A stretch of DNA of 10,156 nucleotides from an uncultured Anaerolineales bacterium (GTDB lineage Bacteria > Chloroflexota > Anaerolineae > Anaerolineales > Villigracilaceae): the NCBI GenBank assembly GCA_937928015.1, contig CALFXA010000209.1:1-10156 (forward strand), read 5' to 3'. Below the pieces are notes generated by a model that was not told the origin of the DNA, searched no databases, and was given only the letters and a program-made list of their open reading frames with translations. Below are positions 1,136 to 8,947 of the stretch, piece by piece (within the stretch, counting starts at the first letter, position 1; each line of letters opens with the position of its first letter). Made by a program: the position numbers and the translations under genes.

Positions 1136-1155
1136 CCGCCGCCGTTGGGCGGCGG
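1136..1155 (+). terminator. GC-rich hairpin between the GH13 gene and the giant membrane protein gene
   Basis: An 8-bp perfect stem (1136-1143 with 1148-1155) closes a 4-nt loop, 11 bases after the GH13 stop. It is followed by a pyrimidine-rich stretch (ctccatttctc) rather than a clean T-run. It may be a weak intrinsic terminator for the GH13 gene or a structure in the leader of the next gene. The simple CCG/CGG content means such a stem could also arise by chance. Confidence 0.35.
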
Positions 1156-1170
1156 CTCCATTTCTCACAT

Positions 1171-1175
1171 AGGAG
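1171..1175 (+). promoter_or_regulatory. Shine-Dalgarno AGGAG that fixes the start of the giant membrane protein
   Basis: AGGAG lies 5 bases before the ATG at 1181. The frame is open further upstream to a TTG at 1145, but that start lies inside the hairpin region and has no ribosome binding site, so 1181 is preferred. Confidence 0.8.
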
Positions 1176-1180
1176 CCTTG

Positions 1181-4100
1181 ATGGGAGACACCACAGGCAA
1201 GCCCGAAAGCTACGCAGACACCCTCGACCGATTGCTGGCGGCGCTGAAAAGCGGCGACCCGCAAGCCCAACGCGCCGCTCTGAAAGAATTGGACGGCCTG
1301 ACCTTCAGCAGCGCCGCCATCGTGGCCGCGCTGGAGCAGATCGCCCTGAATCAGGAGGAGTTGCGCCCGCTGGCCCTGGCAGCGTTGACCAGCCCCGCCA
1401 GCCGCGCCGTATATCGCAGGGGCGCGTCGCTGGACGCTCCCAAACGGGAGATCATCCTGAGTGAGATCGTGGGCTGGCAGAAGAGCGGCCTGCTGGATGA
1501 GACCCGTACGGCGGTTCTAAAAGGCCGCTACGGCTTCGACCTTATCCCCACGCCGACGCCCAAACCTGCTCCCGTTCCCCAGGCGGCCCCAACTCCTCGC
1601 CCTGAACCCGTCCAACACGCGCCACAAGTCCAACCCGCACCCGCGATGGTCTCCCCTGCTCCCCAGGCGGCACCTGCCCCGTTGCCCACGCCCCTGGCGC
1701 CTCCTGTCTCCCCCGCCCCGCAGCGGACCTTCCTGCAGGCCATCCTGAGCGAAACCAGCATCAAGATCTTTCTGTACCTGGGCGCCTTCTTCGTAATTGC
1801 CTCCGCCATCATCCTGGCCGCGCTGGTGGAAATGACCCGCCTGCCCGTGTTGGGCCTCGCCACTCTGATCTTCGGCGGGGCGGCGCTCGGGCTGCGCAAA
1901 CGCCTGCCACAACCGAGTTTTACGCTGTTCATCGTCTTCTCGTTCCTGTTGCCGATCACAGCCTCGGTCCTGCGACAGACCTTGTCCATCACGGGCCAGG
2001 CGGCGGACCTTTATTGGCTGGCCGTGTTGCTGATCATGGCGGGCATCTGGACGGTCAGCACATGGATATACGAATCCCGCCTGTTCAGCCTGACGGCCTT
2101 CGGCGCGCTGACCCTGGCCTTCCTGCGCGTGGGCAATCTGCTCGACGCCGAGACCGAGTTATACGGCGTGCTGGCGGGACTGTCGGTCCTGATCGGGCTG
2201 GCGGGTGTCTGGGCGCTAAAACGCTGGAAAGGTCCAAAGTTCGCGCTAGGCCTGTTCCTCGCGGCACAGGCGGTACAAGGCGGCGCACTCCTCCTGACGC
2301 TGGTGGTGGGCATCATGCGCCTGTTCAGCCAGGATGTGTCTGCCAACTGGCATTTTGCCTCCGCGCTGACCTGGCTGCTGGCCTTCGGCTTCTACGCCCT
2401 GTCTGACGTTCTGTTCCCCACCTTCTTCTTCTCCTGGCTGGCCGCCGCAACGTTGATTCCCGTGCCGTGGTTCGTGAACGCGGCCCTGCAATGGGAAGGA
2501 GCGCGCACGACCTGGTTGTTCCTAGCCTGGGGTGTGGTCCCTTCGCTGATGAGCGAGGCCCTCCAGCGGGTGGAGTCGATCCGCAAGTACAGTCTGCCAG
2601 TTTTACTAACGTCCATGCCCAGCTTGATCATCGCGCTGGCTTTCGGCTTCAACGTGGATGCGCTGAACGGTTTTGGCGTGGCAGTGATCGTAGCCGCCAC
2701 CTATACGTTATTACACCTGTTGCGCGAACGTGAATGGCTATGGACGCTGGCGCTGTTGTACTTCATCACTGCTTACTTTGCCTTCTTCAACCTGCCCTTC
2801 ATCGAGAACACAGACGTGTTCTGGGGCTATCGCATGTTGGGCCTCAGCTTACTCTCTCTGCTGCCCGACCTGGTTTTGAAACCCGATTTCAAAGATGCCC
2901 TGCCCTGGCGACGTCCGCTGCGATTGTTCGGCGCGCTGTTTACAGGGGTGAACATCCTGCTACTGGCGCTGTTCCGCGAGGATCCGCTCGGGAACGCGGC
3001 CATCATCTTCGGGGTATACGCAATCCTGTGTGCCGCCTATGCCTGGCGGTATCAGCGCCCCCTGATCGGCTATGTCTCTACGCTGACCCTGGCGCTGGCG
3101 ACGCTGTTCGCACTCCAGCACTTCGACCTTGACCTGTGGATGCCCGTGTTGACGTCTCTGAGCGTCCTGTACTATCTGGCGACCCTGGCTTTGCGCGGAG
3201 GCGAATCCTTCGCGGGCTGGCGGCGGATGCTGGCAGTCAGTGCATTGGCGCTTGGGAGTATTGTTTCGCTGGTAGCACTAGTCACCCTCAAACTGCATGG
3301 TGGATGGTTCATCGCCATCGTCGGAGCGCTGTTTATCGCCGAAATGTATCTCTCGAAACGGGACCTGTTCGAGGTCGGCGCGCACCTGTTGTTCCCTGCC
3401 GCGGCTTTTCTGTTGCTGCGCGACTTCCATGTGGACCAAGCCTTCTACTTTCTGTTAACGTTCGGCTTGACCTGGCTGGCACTGGACCTGGCCTTCTCAC
3501 ACACGTTCCCAGGCAAACGATCCTTCGAGACCATCGTCCAAATCGTGGGAGCCGTAAGTGTTTTGCTCAGCACAGCCCTGGTCCTGCTTCAAGGGGATCC
3601 AGCCGAGGCGGCTATTTGCTTCGGCATCTCGACCATCTTCTTCCTGGTCTATGCCGCCGTCCAAAACAAGGCATTCTACGGGTATGTTCCTGCGGCGTAC
3701 CTGCCACTGACATTCTATTTCACACTCAAGCACTTCGACCTCGACCTGTGGGTGCCCGTATTGACAGCGGTGGGCGTTCTATACTACGCAGCCTCACTGG
3801 CCCTGCGCCGAGACGAATCCCGCGCGGATTGGCAGCGGATGTGGATGGTCAGCGCGCTTACGCTGGGAAGCGTCATTTCGATATTTGCGTTGGCCACATT
3901 CAAGGCGCACAGCGGATGGTTCGTGGCGATCATCGGGGGCTTGTTCATCGCTGAAATGTATCTCTCGAAACGGAGCCCGTTCGAGGTCGGCGCGCACCTG
4001 CTGTTCCCCGCCGCGACCTTTTTGCTGCTGCGTGACTTCCATGTGGACCAGGCTTTCTACATCTGGCTGGCCCTCGGCCTGGCCTGGTTGACACTGGACC

Positions 4101-5695
4101 TGGTCTTCTCGCGCACCTTCCCAGACAAACGTGACTTCGGGTACATCGTCAAGATTGTGGGCTTTGTGAGCGTTCTGCTTGGCACAGCCCTGGTCCTGAT
4201 GCAGGGAGATGCCGCCGAGGCCGCCATCTGTTTCGGCATCTCGACCATCTTCTTCCTGATCTACACGGTGGGACAGGGCCAGGCCATATATGGCTACGCG
4301 CCCGCGCTGTACCTGCCGCTGACGGTTTATTTCACGCTCCAGCATTTCGACATCGACGCCTGGCTGCCGTCCATCATGGGGCTGGCGGTGACGTATTTTG
4401 CGGTCGGGACGCTGCTCCGCGCCAGGGCGGACTGGGGCAGGATGCTGCGCCGCAGCGGATTGATCGTCGGCGCGGCGCTTTCGCTCGGGGCCTTCGTCGC
4501 CCTCAAGGAAACGGGCGGATGGTACATCCTGGTCATCGGGTTATTGTTCGCGGCGGAAATGTATCTATCCCGCGACAGCCGCTTCGAGATCGGGCTGCCA
4601 ATCCTGTTCAACCTCGGCGCGACCCTGTTGCTGCGTGACTTCGACGTGCATGAGATTGCCTATTTCCTGCTGGCCTACAGCCTGACCTGGCTGTTGACCG
4701 ACCTGCTCGCCCACCTGACCTTTGCCCAGCCGCGCCTGCTCGAAATCCCCGTGCGCGTCATCGGCGGATTGTTGACCGCGGGAACCTACGGCTACCTGCT
4801 GCTCAACTCCACTGACGCTCCCCTGCCCGCTGCCGTCAGCTTTGGGATGTACTCGCTGGTGGCGGTGGGTTTCATCCTGGCGTATCGTCAGCCCTGGTTG
4901 GTCTACACATTGACGGGCACGCTGCCGCTTTTCGTCGCTTATTTCTTTCGCATCTATGGAATCACGCAGTGGATCCACCCTGCCGCCATGCTTGCGGCGG
5001 GATACTATGTAGCGGGGTATATCCTGCGCCGCTCGGGTCAGTCCCCGCGTTGGGATACGGCCTGGCTGACCAGCGGCCTCGGGCTGGGAGTCATCCTCTC
5101 GGCTGCGGCGGTCCTGCTCGGCGGGTTGGACGCGGCCATCCCTGTGGCAATCGCCGCCACGCTATGGGCCGTGGAAGCCTTCGCGCGCAGGAACGTCTGG
5201 CTGGGATTCCCCGCCAACGCGCTCTACCTCCTGGCGTATTTCATCGTCCTGTTCGAGTTGAAGGTGGACGAGCCTCAATTCTTCTCGATGGGCGCCGCCC
5301 TGCTGGGGCTGATCCAGCACTACTTCCTGACGCGCGCCACCAGCAAGACCGCCACCTTCATCACGGGTATGGTCTCGCAATTGATCCTGCTGGGCGCCAC
5401 CTACATCCAGATGTTCAACACACAGGAGTTGGTCTACTTCGCCATGTTGTTCTTCCAGGGACTGGTTGTGCTGTTCTATGGAATCGTCATCCGCTCGCGC
5501 AGCCTGGTCATCACGCCGATCCTCTTCGTGGTGTTGGGCGTAGTCACGGTGGTGTACAGCACCCTGCAGGGAATCTCCACCATCCTGATCGTCGGATGCA
5601 CGGGCATCTTCATGATCCTGCTGGGGACGCTGGCCGTCATTCAGCGCGAACGGCTGATGCGCATCAGCGAACGCTTCAGCGATTGGAACGCATAG
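1181..5695 (+). CDS. Giant repeat-built polytopic membrane protein, function unknown
   Basis: This 1504-residue protein has three parts. Residues 1-120 are soluble: an alpha-helical, HEAT-like stretch, then a segment (IVGWQKSGLLDETRTAVL) resembling the short N-terminal motif of DUF2157-type membrane proteins. Residues 122-181 are a Pro/Ala-rich linker. From about residue 194 to the end I count roughly 50 hydrophobic segments with short loops. The membrane part from about residue 439 to 1463 consists of five tandem units of 203-208 residues, each with about eight helices. No catalytic motif, ATP-binding site or substrate-specific loop is recognisable. Large proteins of this style, such as the SCO7613-like family of actinobacteria and DUF2339 proteins, are described only as predicted membrane proteins; relation to either is my inference. 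The start is fixed by AGGAG at 1171. The 168-residue gene 11 bases downstream is probably co-transcribed. Confidence 0.88.
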   Translation: MGDTTGKPESYADTLDRLLAALKSGDPQAQRAALKELDGLTFSSAAIVAALEQIALNQEELRPLALAALTSPASRAVYRRGASLDAPKREIILSEIVGWQKSGLLDETRTAVLKGRYGFDLIPTPTPKPAPVPQAAPTPRPEPVQHAPQVQPAPAMVSPAPQAAPAPLPTPLAPPVSPAPQRTFLQAILSETSIKIFLYLGAFFVIASAIILAALVEMTRLPVLGLATLIFGGAALGLRKRLPQPSFTLFIVFSFLLPITASVLRQTLSITGQAADLYWLAVLLIMAGIWTVSTWIYESRLFSLTAFGALTLAFLRVGNLLDAETELYGVLAGLSVLIGLAGVWALKRWKGPKFALGLFLAAQAVQGGALLLTLVVGIMRLFSQDVSANWHFASALTWLLAFGFYALSDVLFPTFFFSWLAAATLIPVPWFVNAALQWEGARTTWLFLAWGVVPSLMSEALQRVESIRKYSLPVLLTSMPSLIIALAFGFNVDALNGFGVAVIVAATYTLLHLLREREWLWTLALLYFITAYFAFFNLPFIENTDVFWGYRMLGLSLLSLLPDLVLKPDFKDALPWRRPLRLFGALFTGVNILLLALFREDPLGNAAIIFGVYAILCAAYAWRYQRPLIGYVSTLTLALATLFALQHFDLDLWMPVLTSLSVLYYLATLALRGGESFAGWRRMLAVSALALGSIVSLVALVTLKLHGGWFIAIVGALFIAEMYLSKRDLFEVGAHLLFPAAAFLLLRDFHVDQAFYFLLTFGLTWLALDLAFSHTFPGKRSFETIVQIVGAVSVLLSTALVLLQGDPAEAAICFGISTIFFLVYAAVQNKAFYGYVPAAYLPLTFYFTLKHFDLDLWVPVLTAVGVLYYAASLALRRDESRADWQRMWMVSALTLGSVISIFALATFKAHSGWFVAIIGGLFIAEMYLSKRSPFEVGAHLLFPAATFLLLRDFHVDQAFYIWLALGLAWLTLDLVFSRTFPDKRDFGYIVKIVGFVSVLLGTALVLMQGDAAEAAICFGISTIFFLIYTVGQGQAIYGYAPALYLPLTVYFTLQHFDIDAWLPSIMGLAVTYFAVGTLLRARADWGRMLRRSGLIVGAALSLGAFVALKETGGWYILVIGLLFAAEMYLSRDSRFEIGLPILFNLGATLLLRDFDVHEIAYFLLAYSLTWLLTDLLAHLTFAQPRLLEIPVRVIGGLLTAGTYGYLLLNSTDAPLPAAVSFGMYSLVAVGFILAYRQPWLVYTLTGTLPLFVAYFFRIYGITQWIHPAAMLAAGYYVAGYILRRSGQSPRWDTAWLTSGLGLGVILSAAAVLLGGLDAAIPVAIAATLWAVEAFARRNVWLGFPANALYLLAYFIVLFELKVDEPQFFSMGAALLGLIQHYFLTRATSKTATFITGMVSQLILLGATYIQMFNTQELVYFAMLFFQGLVVLFYGIVIRSRSLVITPILFVVLGVVTVVYSTLQGISTILIVGCTGIFMILLGTLAVIQRERLMRISERFSDWNA
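2495..5569 (+). repeat. Five tandem coding repeats of about 612 bp in the giant membrane protein
   Basis: Anchoring on the recurring HFDxDxW motif or its divergent equivalents gives units at 2495-3118, 3119-3730, 3731-4342, 4343-4951 and 4952-5569 (208, 204, 204, 203 and 206 residues). Each unit carries the same succession of about eight hydrophobic segments. In the three middle units these include GGW/SGW-F-x-AI, the AEMYLS motif, LLLRDF and a YGY/LPLT segment. Units 1 and 5 are divergent and were placed by hand alignment of the hydrophobic pattern, so their outer boundaries are approximate. Confidence 0.8.
3119..4342 (+). repeat. Nearly identical adjacent repeat units, exact 612-bp period
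   Basis: Units 2 and 3 align without gaps over 204 residues; I count about 148 identical positions (about 73%). Identity is patchy and includes long exact DNA matches, for example 27 bases at 3620-3646 matching 4232-4258, and 21 bases around 3369-3389 matching 3981-4001. This pattern fits a later duplication, or gene conversion, within an older repeat array. Unit 4 keeps the same register but is more divergent. Confidence 0.85.
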
Positions 5696-6214: not shown

Positions 6215-6982
6215 CTATCCCCACACCGCCTGCACCAACGCTGGCAACGCCTCGCCCGATTTGCCCTGAAGGAAAAAGTCAACTTTGGGCGTGAGCGGCG
6301 TCGGCTCCATATTGACCTCAACCACCAGCGCGCCGCGGTTGTGTGCCGCGAATCCCAGCGATGCGGCAGGCTGGACCACGCCCGAGGTCCCGACGGAAAA
6401 GAAGGCGTCACACCCGCGGGCGGATTCCACTGCCGCTTCCAGCGCGGACCTCGGCAGGGCCTCGCCAAACCAGACCACATCGGGCCTGAGCAGCCCTCCG
6501 CACCCCGCGCAGCGCGGCACGGACTCCGAGTCGTCGCCCCACTCGTCGGTGAAGGTCCCGCACTCCGAACAGCGCACACGCTGGATGTTCCCATGCAGTT
6601 CGAGAATCGAATAATCCCTAAAGGTCTGTGTGGCCTTTAGGGATTCATGTTTAACGAACTCGTGCAAGCCGTCCACGTTCTGGGTGATGAGCGTGAAGTG
6701 CGGCGCGCGCTGCGCCATCTCGTGCAGGGCGTAATGCCCAGCATTCGGCCGCACCGACTTGATCGCTTCACGCCGCCAGGTGTACCAGTCCCAGACCAGT
6801 TTGGGGTCGCGGGCAAAAGCCTCGGGCGAGGCCAGGTCGGTCGGCTTGTACTGCGCCCATAGTCCCGCCTGGGCATCGCGGAAGGTGCGCAGTCCGCTCT
6901 CCTGCGAGGCACCCGCCCCCGTCAACACGGCAATGCGCTGCGCCTTCCGCAGGTATTGGATCAGTTCAGGGGCGAAATCCAT
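6215..6982 (-). CDS. Sir2-family NAD-dependent protein deacylase (CobB-type sirtuin)
   Basis: This 255-residue sirtuin removes acyl groups from lysines using NAD+, giving nicotinamide and O-acyl-ADP-ribose in the cytoplasm. NAD-binding motifs are GAGAS (22-26), TFRD (33-36), TQNVDGLH (100-107) and VGTSGVVQPA near the C-terminus. The catalytic His is H130 in ELHGN, and a zinc site is formed by C138, C141, C158 and C161. RPDVVWFGE (166-174) is also typical. Tyr67 and Arg70 form the YxxR pair that marks SIRT5/CobB-like enzymes acting on succinyl or malonyl lysine. Between LH (106-107) and HG (130-131) it has 22 residues, where E. coli CobB as I recall it has 11; the extra part coincides with a 33-bp palindrome. 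The ATG is 6 bases after the lipoprotein stop with no clear Shine-Dalgarno, suggesting translational coupling. Its stop is 1 base from that of the convergent gene. Confidence 0.95.
   Translation of the reverse strand: MDFAPELIQYLRKAQRIAVLTGAGASQESGLRTFRDAQAGLWAQYKPTDLASPEAFARDPKLVWDWYTWRREAIKSVRPNAGHYALHEMAQRAPHFTLITQNVDGLHEFVKHESLKATQTFRDYSILELHGNIQRVRCSECGTFTDEWGDDSESVPRCAGCGGLLRPDVVWFGEALPRSALEAAVESARGCDAFFSVGTSGVVQPAASLGFAAHNRGALVVEVNMEPTPLTPKVDFFLQGKSGEALPALVQAVWG
6613..6645. repeat. Perfect 12-bp inverted repeat with 9-nt loop inside the sirtuin gene
   Basis: AATCCCTAAAGG (6613-6624) and CCTTTAGGGATT (6634-6645) are exact reverse complements separated by 9 bases. The whole element is 33 bp, exactly 11 codons, and runs from the second base of codon 113 to the first base of codon 124 of the sirtuin. 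It is AT-richer than its surroundings. It looks like a small palindromic element inserted in frame. There is no T-run on either side, so it is not an intrinsic terminator. Confidence 0.85.
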
Positions 6983-6988
6983 GAAGGG

Positions 6989-7657
6989 TCACGGGCACTT
7001 ATCGAGGGTCAGGTCCTGGGAAAAGACGAGCGAACGGGCCACCTCGTTGGTGTTCTTGTCAGTGGCTACGATCTGGAAGATGACCCAGTTGGGCTGGGGA
7101 TCATACATACCCATCTGACGGCCGTCCAGTGTGATGGAGTAGGTCCCACCGCCCATGTCTTCCAGCGAAAAGCCCTGGTTCCAACCCGTCTCGCCGCCCG
7201 TCCCGCGGTTGCGAAACTTGAAGAAGAGCACCACACTGACGACGCGCTCAGGCTCCGCCATCTGCACGGTGATCTTAGCCAGGTATGGATCACACGATCC
7301 CCAATGAAACAGGTCCGTGGATTGTTCCATGCTGAGGAAGCCCTCACCAAGCGCACGCGGGGTGGGCGTGTCCGTGGGAAGGAGCGGCAACGCCGTGGAC
7401 GTGGCAGGCGTGATGAACAGGATTTGGTCGGTGGGGATGGGCGTCTCGCTCGGCGGGAGGGTTGGCTTGGCCCCGATCAAGGTCGGTGTGGACGTGAAGG
7501 TGGGCGGGATCTCGGGCGTGAACGTCGAGGTGGGCAGCGGCGTGAACGTCTCGGTCGGCGGAAGGGGGGTCGCCGCCATCCCTGGCAGGGGCAGGTCAGA
7601 CATCGAACAGGCCAGCAGAAATACAACAAGCAGTGAAAGGGGAAGGAGTTTTCTCAT
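6989..7657 (-). CDS. Secreted lipoprotein with Pro/Thr-rich linker and C-terminal beta-rich domain
   Basis: This 222-residue protein begins with a lipoprotein signal peptide: positive MRK, a hydrophobic core, and lipobox LLAC with Cys17 as the predicted lipidated residue. Residues 30-100 are a low-complexity Pro/Thr/Ser linker (TPT, TETFTP, TSTPT), the kind of spacer that Chloroflexota surface proteins often carry. Residues 103-222 form a compact, probably beta-sandwich domain with two cysteines (C122 in GSCDPY and C221 in DKCP) placed to form a disulfide linking its ends. I do not recognise this domain. The ATG at 7657 is chosen over the in-frame ATG at 7675 because GAGG (7663-7666) lies 5 bases before it and the signal peptide starts properly there. 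The sirtuin gene begins 6 bases after its stop, so the two are probably co-transcribed. The protein should be anchored outside the cell and bind something, but no ligand can be named. Confidence 0.87.
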   Translation of the reverse strand: MRKLLPLSLLVVFLLACSMSDLPLPGMAATPLPPTETFTPLPTSTFTPEIPPTFTSTPTLIGAKPTLPPSETPIPTDQILFITPATSTALPLLPTDTPTPRALGEGFLSMEQSTDLFHWGSCDPYLAKITVQMAEPERVVSVVLFFKFRNRGTGGETGWNQGFSLEDMGGGTYSITLDGRQMGMYDPQPNWVIFQIVATDKNTNEVARSLVFSQDLTLDKCP

Positions 7658-7662
7658 GGTCG

Positions 7663-7666
7663 CCTC
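7663..7666 (-). promoter_or_regulatory. Shine-Dalgarno GAGG that fixes the lipoprotein start
   Basis: Reading the minus strand, GAGG lies 5 bases before the ATG at 7657. The alternative ATG at 7675 has only AT-rich sequence in front of it and would add six residues before the signal peptide. Confidence 0.65.
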
Positions 7667-7673
7667 GCAACCC

Positions 7674-7679
7674 ATTTTA
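7674..7679 (-). promoter_or_regulatory. Possible -10 box (TAAAAT) of the lipoprotein-sirtuin transcript
   Basis: On the minus strand TAAAAT matches the -10 consensus at five of six positions, in an otherwise GC-rich gap. Transcription would start near 7667, directly before the Shine-Dalgarno. No convincing -35 box is visible at 16-18 bases upstream, so this is tentative. Confidence 0.3.
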
Positions 7680-7750
7680 ACGCAAACCCCGCCCTCTCCA
7701 CTGACCCGTTCCTCCCAATCTCATCTCTCTTTGGCAAGGACGAGGTTACG

Positions 7751-8915: not shown

Positions 8916-8947
8916 AAACGGGCTGACTGATTGTCAGCCCGTTTTTT
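8916..8947 (+). terminator. Strong intrinsic terminator of the glycosyltransferase gene
   Basis: A perfect 12-bp stem (8916-8927 with 8933-8944) closes a 5-nt loop. A six-T run (8942-8947) overlaps the stem base and continues as CTT. It begins 6 bases after the glycosyltransferase stop. On the minus strand the stem is followed only by a short T-run (TTTGCGTTTT), so it could act weakly on the convergent S41 peptidase gene as well. Confidence 0.92.

Follow-up and report, generated by a model that had tools for sequence, protein, structure and literature searches.

A 33-bp REP-like palindrome lies in frame within an Anaerolineales sirtuin gene and is probably mobilised by a RAYT protein

The 10,156-nucleotide stretch of DNA analysed here (hereafter the window) derives from an uncultured Anaerolineales bacterium of the Villigracilaceae (Chloroflexota; assembly GCA_937928015.1, contig CALFXA010000209.1) and carries a gene for a sirtuin that contains, without loss of the reading frame, a 33-bp palindrome (Table 1). 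We report that this palindrome belongs to a dispersed, length-constrained family and occupies, in frame, a loop that most orthologues have empty. Moreover, comparison of palindrome-bearing loci suggests that it is probably mobilised by a REP-associated tyrosine transposase (RAYT), where REP denotes repetitive extragenic palindromic sequences. The window's own genome was not searchable and relatives were used in its place; genomes, contigs, loci and proteins carry our G, C, L and P numbers, respectively, G001 being the nearest relative.

Table 1. The sirtuin gene and its palindrome, in window positions
Feature	Position	Strand	Description
Sirtuin gene (SIR2, NAD-dependent protein deacylase)	6215..6982	-	255 amino acids; Pfam SIR2 E 1.3e-45; palindrome in frame as residues 113-124
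REP-like palindrome, 33 bp	6613..6645	.	15-nt arm + NNN + 15-nt arm; perfect over outer 12 nt
Left perfect arm AATCCCTAAAGG	6613..6624	+	inverted-repeat search
Right perfect arm CCTTTAGGGATT	6634..6645	+	inverted-repeat search

An inverted-repeat search of the window (arms of at least 11 nt, spacing of at most 60 nt) detected two inverted repeats, the one in the sirtuin gene and another at 8916-8944. The arms of the former are 12 nt each, 100% complementary and separated by a 9-nt spacer, as described in an earlier note made from the letters alone, and translation agrees with the note that the element comprises exactly 11 codons (33 nt) and keeps the sirtuin frame. It is read as gaA TCC CTA AAG GCC ACA CAG ACC TTT AGG GAT Tat, i.e. 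E-SLKATQTFRD-Y. The predicted RNA fold of the 81-nt region around it lies 3.8 standard deviations below that of shuffles. In 800 kb of G001, 214 inverted repeats with at least 11 matched pairs were found vs 21 in the control, which was one Markov-shuffled 800-kb sequence. Chance or coding constraint as the source of the palindrome is ruled out by the shuffle and reversed-pattern controls. An Rfam search of the window gave no match.

Residues N102, D104, H130, C138, C141, C158 and C161 of the window sirtuin are invariant in a 43-row alignment. Between LH107 and H130-G131 the protein has 22 residues compared with 11 in element-free orthologues; the note had arrived at the same surplus of 11 residues, equal to the element length, from E. 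coli CobB, and the orthologues compared here bear this out. Counted from LH to LHG, element-free sirtuins have 10 residues, e.g. RMAGSQNVLE (94 of 94 database proteins, and likewise the element-free loci compared). The window sirtuin and that of the nearest locus, L001 in genome G001, both have 21, which amounts to exactly 33 bp net over element-free loci. The L001 sirtuin is 87% identical to the window's, the neighbourhood is conserved (window 6215-7689, 78%) and the palindrome, AGTCCCTAAAGGTTT-CTG-AAACCTTTAGGGACT, sits at the same codon site. In L002 and L003 the same loop holds AGACCCTGAAGGTCT-TCG-AGACCTTCAGGGTCT, with 17 residues between LH and LHG (net +21 bp), and L045 has 19 residues in the loop and a shorter, different palindrome. 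The DNA was examined for these five of the 31 insert-bearing sirtuins and all have a palindrome. The note had named as speaking against an insertion the case that all close orthologues carry the extra residues without the palindrome at the DNA level; this does not apply, as most sirtuins compared (98 of 129 rows) lack the insert.

A tree of 129 sirtuin protein rows (31 with and 98 without the insert) was built without the loop; its bootstrap had not settled and L045 forms a long branch. On this tree the insert label requires 10 state changes, at least seven of which are forced by well-supported branches, and because of these changes the same loop appears to have been entered, or the insert lost, several times. 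The window sirtuin falls in a 12-row clade with 11 insert-bearing members. The element-free P0018 is nested within this clade, possibly through loss or exchange of the insert, and the AG that follows LH in element-free sirtuins is missing from the window's clade. We infer a single insertion in the ancestor of the clade, which would have been retained and would have added 11 residues near the active site; since the net gain is exactly 33 bp, a target duplication is not needed to account for it. The AlphaFold model (mean pLDDT 86; 75 on average for residues 111-120) places the insert where helix 106-115 ends and in the loop leading into strand 125-128, with H130 following a few residues later. 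The nearest solved folds are the Sir2 homologues 1m2h and 1ici (40-41% identity), followed by SIRT5.

In members of the palindrome family, which are dispersed in Chloroflexi, a variable 3-nt loop separates two arms of 15 nt, AGACCCTAAAGGTYT and its complement. With the spacer left free, G001 has 19 copies of CCCTRAAGG-loop-CCTTYAGGG, 17 of them 33 bp long, and none of the reversed pattern. At up to three mismatches the family is present in 16 of 20 related genomes (reversed control 0), including 19 copies in G002 and 17 in G003, and a sister family with the core CTGACAGG is likewise present in 16 of 20 (control 0). In a draw of 298 genomes of the class to which G001 belongs, 52 have the first family at up to two mismatches (control 0), the richest being G240 with 60 copies. 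The possibility raised in the note that the arms occur nowhere else thus does not apply to the related genomes. The length is 33 bp for 41 of the 49 exact arm pairs found within 160 bp. Among 74 copies with the CCTAAAGG core the arm positions are nearly invariant, with T or C at position 14, and the loop (positions 16-18) is variable. The arms are themselves near-palindromic, with at least five of seven Watson-Crick pairs in 20 of the 22 listed arms (one arm was listed twice; shuffle mean ≈1.9), and the 33-bp unit resembles a head-to-head pair of mini-hairpins. It ends in AG...CT in 140 of 160 copies, which were chosen by a pattern demanding A[AG]...[CT]T ends. The outward flanks revealed no strong target-site preference (33- and 34-bp copies, to which the regular expression was limited), and a DNA search in G003 for the empty site of one G002 copy returned only 70% partial matches. 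Contig C25 of G001 (L096-L135) also has other dispersed palindrome families, e.g. CGAAGCAATCTC...GAGATTGCTTCG, CGGTCACAAATTGCGC... and CCTCCCCAAAT...ATTTGGGGAGG.

Quasi-palindromes are prone to inverted duplication and template switching, and the palindrome could in principle have been formed on the spot, in keeping with net insert lengths that differ between loci. That copies dispersed across genomes share these arms (0-3 mismatches in 26 specified positions, reversed control 0) makes such a local origin extremely unlikely. The hairpin might instead be retained because it serves the sirtuin gene as RNA or DNA, for example in translation pausing, mRNA stability or protein binding, rather than being a settled mobile element. 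The strong fold (z -3.8) would suit such a function, as would the arm changes in seven orthologous pairs (the window/L001 sirtuin and six G002/G003 sites), where 8 of 15 differences represent four pairs that keep complementarity. Template-directed correction of quasi-palindromes, replacement of the palindrome by newly arrived copies and selection acting on the hairpin would each fit this pattern, and template-switch repair of quasi-palindromes can also yield paired changes. With 98 of the 129 sirtuin rows lacking the palindrome, and the same arms present in unrelated genes and outside genes, we regard a retained hairpin function as very improbable.

To score copies elsewhere, a codon model was applied to G001, G002 and G003; it was trained on G001 only, where 16 of the 19 copies fitted the pattern and were scored. 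Twelve of 52 copies were called in frame within genes and 40 were not; three of the twelve come from the sirtuin and two form an orthologous pair. Eleven of the twelve share the reading frame that gives x[TS]LKV..TFR[VD]x. One type I restriction R gene of G002 holds two in-frame copies, and one of these places is also filled in G005. L084, a gene for a ceramidase-like protein (PF04734), has an in-frame palindrome that its orthologues in G006 and G010 lack, with a net gain of 18 bp. Net gains other than 33 bp suggest that insertions sometimes replace a few target bases or that flanks are trimmed later. A small mobile palindrome inserted without frame loss, as put forward in the note, accords with the dispersed family and with element-free sirtuins that are exactly 11 residues shorter. 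A target duplication, for which the note had proposed to look, is not needed to explain the site in the window, and the insertion, clean there (+33 bp), is not clean in L002 (+21 bp) and L084 (+18 bp).

Palindrome clusters in G005 and G002 flank a divergent RAYT-like gene within type I restriction-modification loci. (In two genomes RAYT genes of this family, L241 and L242, lie inside such loci, where the R subunit has an in-frame palindrome at a shared position, and the G002 R subunit also contains a GIY-YIG domain.) Palindromes flank the RAYT gene in G002, G005, G010, G004 and G014, so that a RAYT gene with cognate copies on either side, as in REP-RAYT systems, is found in relatives. The flanking palindromes vary in core between RAYTs, e.g. 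CCTAAAGG around that of G010 and CTGACAGG around those of G004 and G014, and their arms are found both in a 33-bp form and in a REPIN-like form of ≈95 bp. In total 34 RAYT loci were read out of 67 hits (those of G002, G004, G005, G010 and G014 plus 29 new), and at 33 of the 34 one or more exact arm pairs lie outside the coding part at a distance of up to 700 bp, some pairs being of other sequence. At L332 and L335 long tandem arrays of AGGACTGAC.GTCCT palindromes lie beside the RAYT gene. The RAYTs of G005 and G002 match NCBIfam NF047646 (REP_Tyr_transpos, REP-associated tyrosine transposase) at 50 and 43 bits, and all 30 aligned members match it at E≤0.001. A profile of these 30 matches TnpArep (PDB 4er8; E 1.2e-4), and H58, H60, Y88, Y124 and Y146 are invariant in the 30 rows. 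By these matches and residues the partner protein belongs to the HUH/Y1 TnpA_REP family, with NF047646 scores below the cut-off of 80 bits where shown.

Most of the RAYT genes themselves contain a palindrome. It was seen in 24 of 34 genes in a first pass. Widening the anchor pattern gave 26 of 34, the palindrome lying in frame after the HUH motif and before the conserved helix that comes next, and one of these copies (L281) is degenerate; an equal-length control segment farther down the gene has a palindrome in 1 of 34. In 23 of the 25 RAYT genes that have both an in-gene copy and a flanking pair, the in-gene core differs from a flanking copy at no more than one of 11 positions (L333, having no flanking pair, was excluded from this comparison). 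The remaining two are L331 (distance 2) and L322 (distance 4; the measure omits the complement of the arm). The mean distance between in-gene and flanking core is 0.52 vs 3.07 after permutation, and none of 5000 permutations was as low. Among RAYT genes a given core is translated in more than one frame and lies at more than one offset, and several independent insertions into them are therefore likely. In the class draw, RAYT at E≤1e-30 was found in 51 of 298 genomes, namely in 20 of the 52 element genomes vs 31 of the 246 others (Fisher p 5e-5).

Genes of PF01797, which are present in all 15 genomes tried (51 hits), were rejected as candidate mobilisers, as none of 43 stretches covering 44 of the 51 hits has a perfect-arm CCCTAAAGG palindrome. 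A lone half-site occurs in two of the stretches, and L240 has a related 33-bp palindrome of other core 506 bp upstream. The PF01797 gene at C25:288583 (L286; G001:C25 ≈288418-288918) is a different RAYT with AGGTGACAGTCACCT palindromes of 15-3-15 build on both sides, one arm being imperfect, and that at C25:561691 is flanked by GTAG...CTAC palindromes.

Among known systems REP/REPIN-RAYT (TnpA_REP) is similar in having short palindromes, here within the 20-40 bp range, which are dispersed in many copies, mostly not in frame in genes (40 of 52), and flank an HUH/Y1-type gene, and in comprising inverted-pair (≈95 bp) and short forms. Unlike REPs, the palindromes here are without the GT[AG]G foot and end in AG...CT in most copies of the pattern-selected set, their short form is symmetric and 33 bp long, and nearly all arms (20 of 22) are near-palindromic. 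Passages of PMC6006769 describe, for TnpA_Y1 subclass 2.4 (RAYT group 4), REPs that lie in frame within tnpA_REP genes, between the HuH and Y motifs, as well as "double foot" REPs that could be derived by central deletion of an inverted REP pair. The in-gene palindrome after the HUH motif in 26 of 34 RAYT genes would correspond to the former, and this RAYT clade may belong to subclass 2.4 or to a new one. The published double-foot REPs carry GT[AG]G and C[TC]AC according to the same passages, whereas most here carry AGAC and GTCT or close variants.

The note had compared the element with Rickettsia palindromic elements (RPEs). This holds for the in-frame, tolerated insertion that leaves the reading frame of the gene open; the nearer match is to REP-like palindromes tied to a RAYT gene. 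The sequence is different, the CGTC end that sections of PMC3733652 ascribe to RPE-4 and RPE-6 is absent here, and a candidate transposase is known. Miniature inverted-repeat transposable elements of DDE insertion sequences are likewise non-autonomous and inverted-repeat ended, but the partner gene here is HUH/Y1-like, and the window's clade, at exactly +33 bp, requires no target duplication (the net gain at other sites is +21 and +18 bp). In-frame REPs, including those inside RAYT genes, are already known from the literature, and intragenic REPs in host genes as well as RPEs are covered by PMC3733652 in the sections consulted. An extract of PMC12306157 counts REP sequences, possibly with this family among them, in genomes including that of Anaerolinea thermolimosa. 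Among the literature matches listed (open-licence PMC papers), we found no report of this palindrome family or of a palindrome in a sirtuin.

Taken together, we consider it probable (roughly 0.82) that the sirtuin palindrome is a short REP-like mobile element, the hairpin of which a RAYT moves as single-stranded DNA, and that this insertion was kept in frame. The RAYT would cut and move the hairpin, probably at its CT ends; TnpA_REP proteins cut at CT according to parts of PMC8266576, where the tetranucleotide is also thought necessary for REP recognition and the choice of cleavage site. The 33-bp form may be copied as such or may have arisen from the 95-bp inverted pair through loss of its centre. 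Some insertions into gene loops would be tolerated, 33 being divisible by three and one arm frame being free of stops, and the one in the ancestor of the window's sirtuin clade, into the LH-to-HG loop, would be such a case. Since the tetranucleotide foot is absent, the palindrome, which behaves as a REP, is best named a REP-like variant.

Several points weigh against this interpretation. Movement of the palindrome was not observed, the data being sequence comparisons. The RAYT scores shown are under curated cut-offs (43-52 of 80 bits for NCBIfam; in Pfam, L241 reaches 18.5 of 23 bits and L242 has no Y1_Tnp match), none of the 43 stretches around PF01797 hits has a perfect-arm CCCTAAAGG palindrome, and net insert length varies from +33 bp (window/L001) to +21 bp (L002) and +18 bp (L084). 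The Fisher test takes no account of kinship, 32 of the 52 element genomes are without RAYT at E≤1e-30, including G001 (19 copies) and G240 (60), and the GT[AG]G foot, in 3 of 160 copies vs 2.5 expected, is absent. The missing close RAYTs and the missing canonical foot would also be expected if the palindrome were moved in the manner of RPEs by some other enzyme and had merely inserted next to or into RAYT genes; portions of PMC3733652 describe CGTC REPs, RPE-4 and RPE-6 among them, as apparently lacking a dedicated transposase. Such a non-RAYT mover is in our view unlikely, since the flanking core varies by RAYT and the in-gene core tracks it (23 of 25 within one position), which is the pattern of cognate pairs.

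Elsewhere in the window, the inverted repeat at 8916-8944, perfect over 12 bp with a 5-nt loop, lies between converging glycosyltransferase and S41 peptidase genes and is probably a terminator. Positions 1145-5695 encode a 1516-amino-acid protein that by eye appears membrane-like with repeated internal units and has no Pfam match at E 0.001.

Mobilisation by RAYT would widen REP-RAYT biology to hairpins without the tetranucleotide, and it raises the question of how such enzymes select their cut site. The sirtuins offer a natural series of sites, empty and filled, within a single conserved enzyme loop, the arms belonging to a known family. The tolerance of mobile palindromes in proteins, along with what the in-gene copy does in RAYT genes, becomes directly testable. 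More speculatively, and at rather long odds, a RAYT lineage without GT[AG]G might use a frame-neutral, stop-poor 33-bp unit that repeatedly enters the same permissive protein loops, its in-gene copy being no accident but a master or self-regulatory copy that co-evolves with enzyme specificity, and its repeated entry next to the sirtuin active site having altered enzyme activity or partner choice. If true, this would be a case of protein evolution by mobile palindromes.
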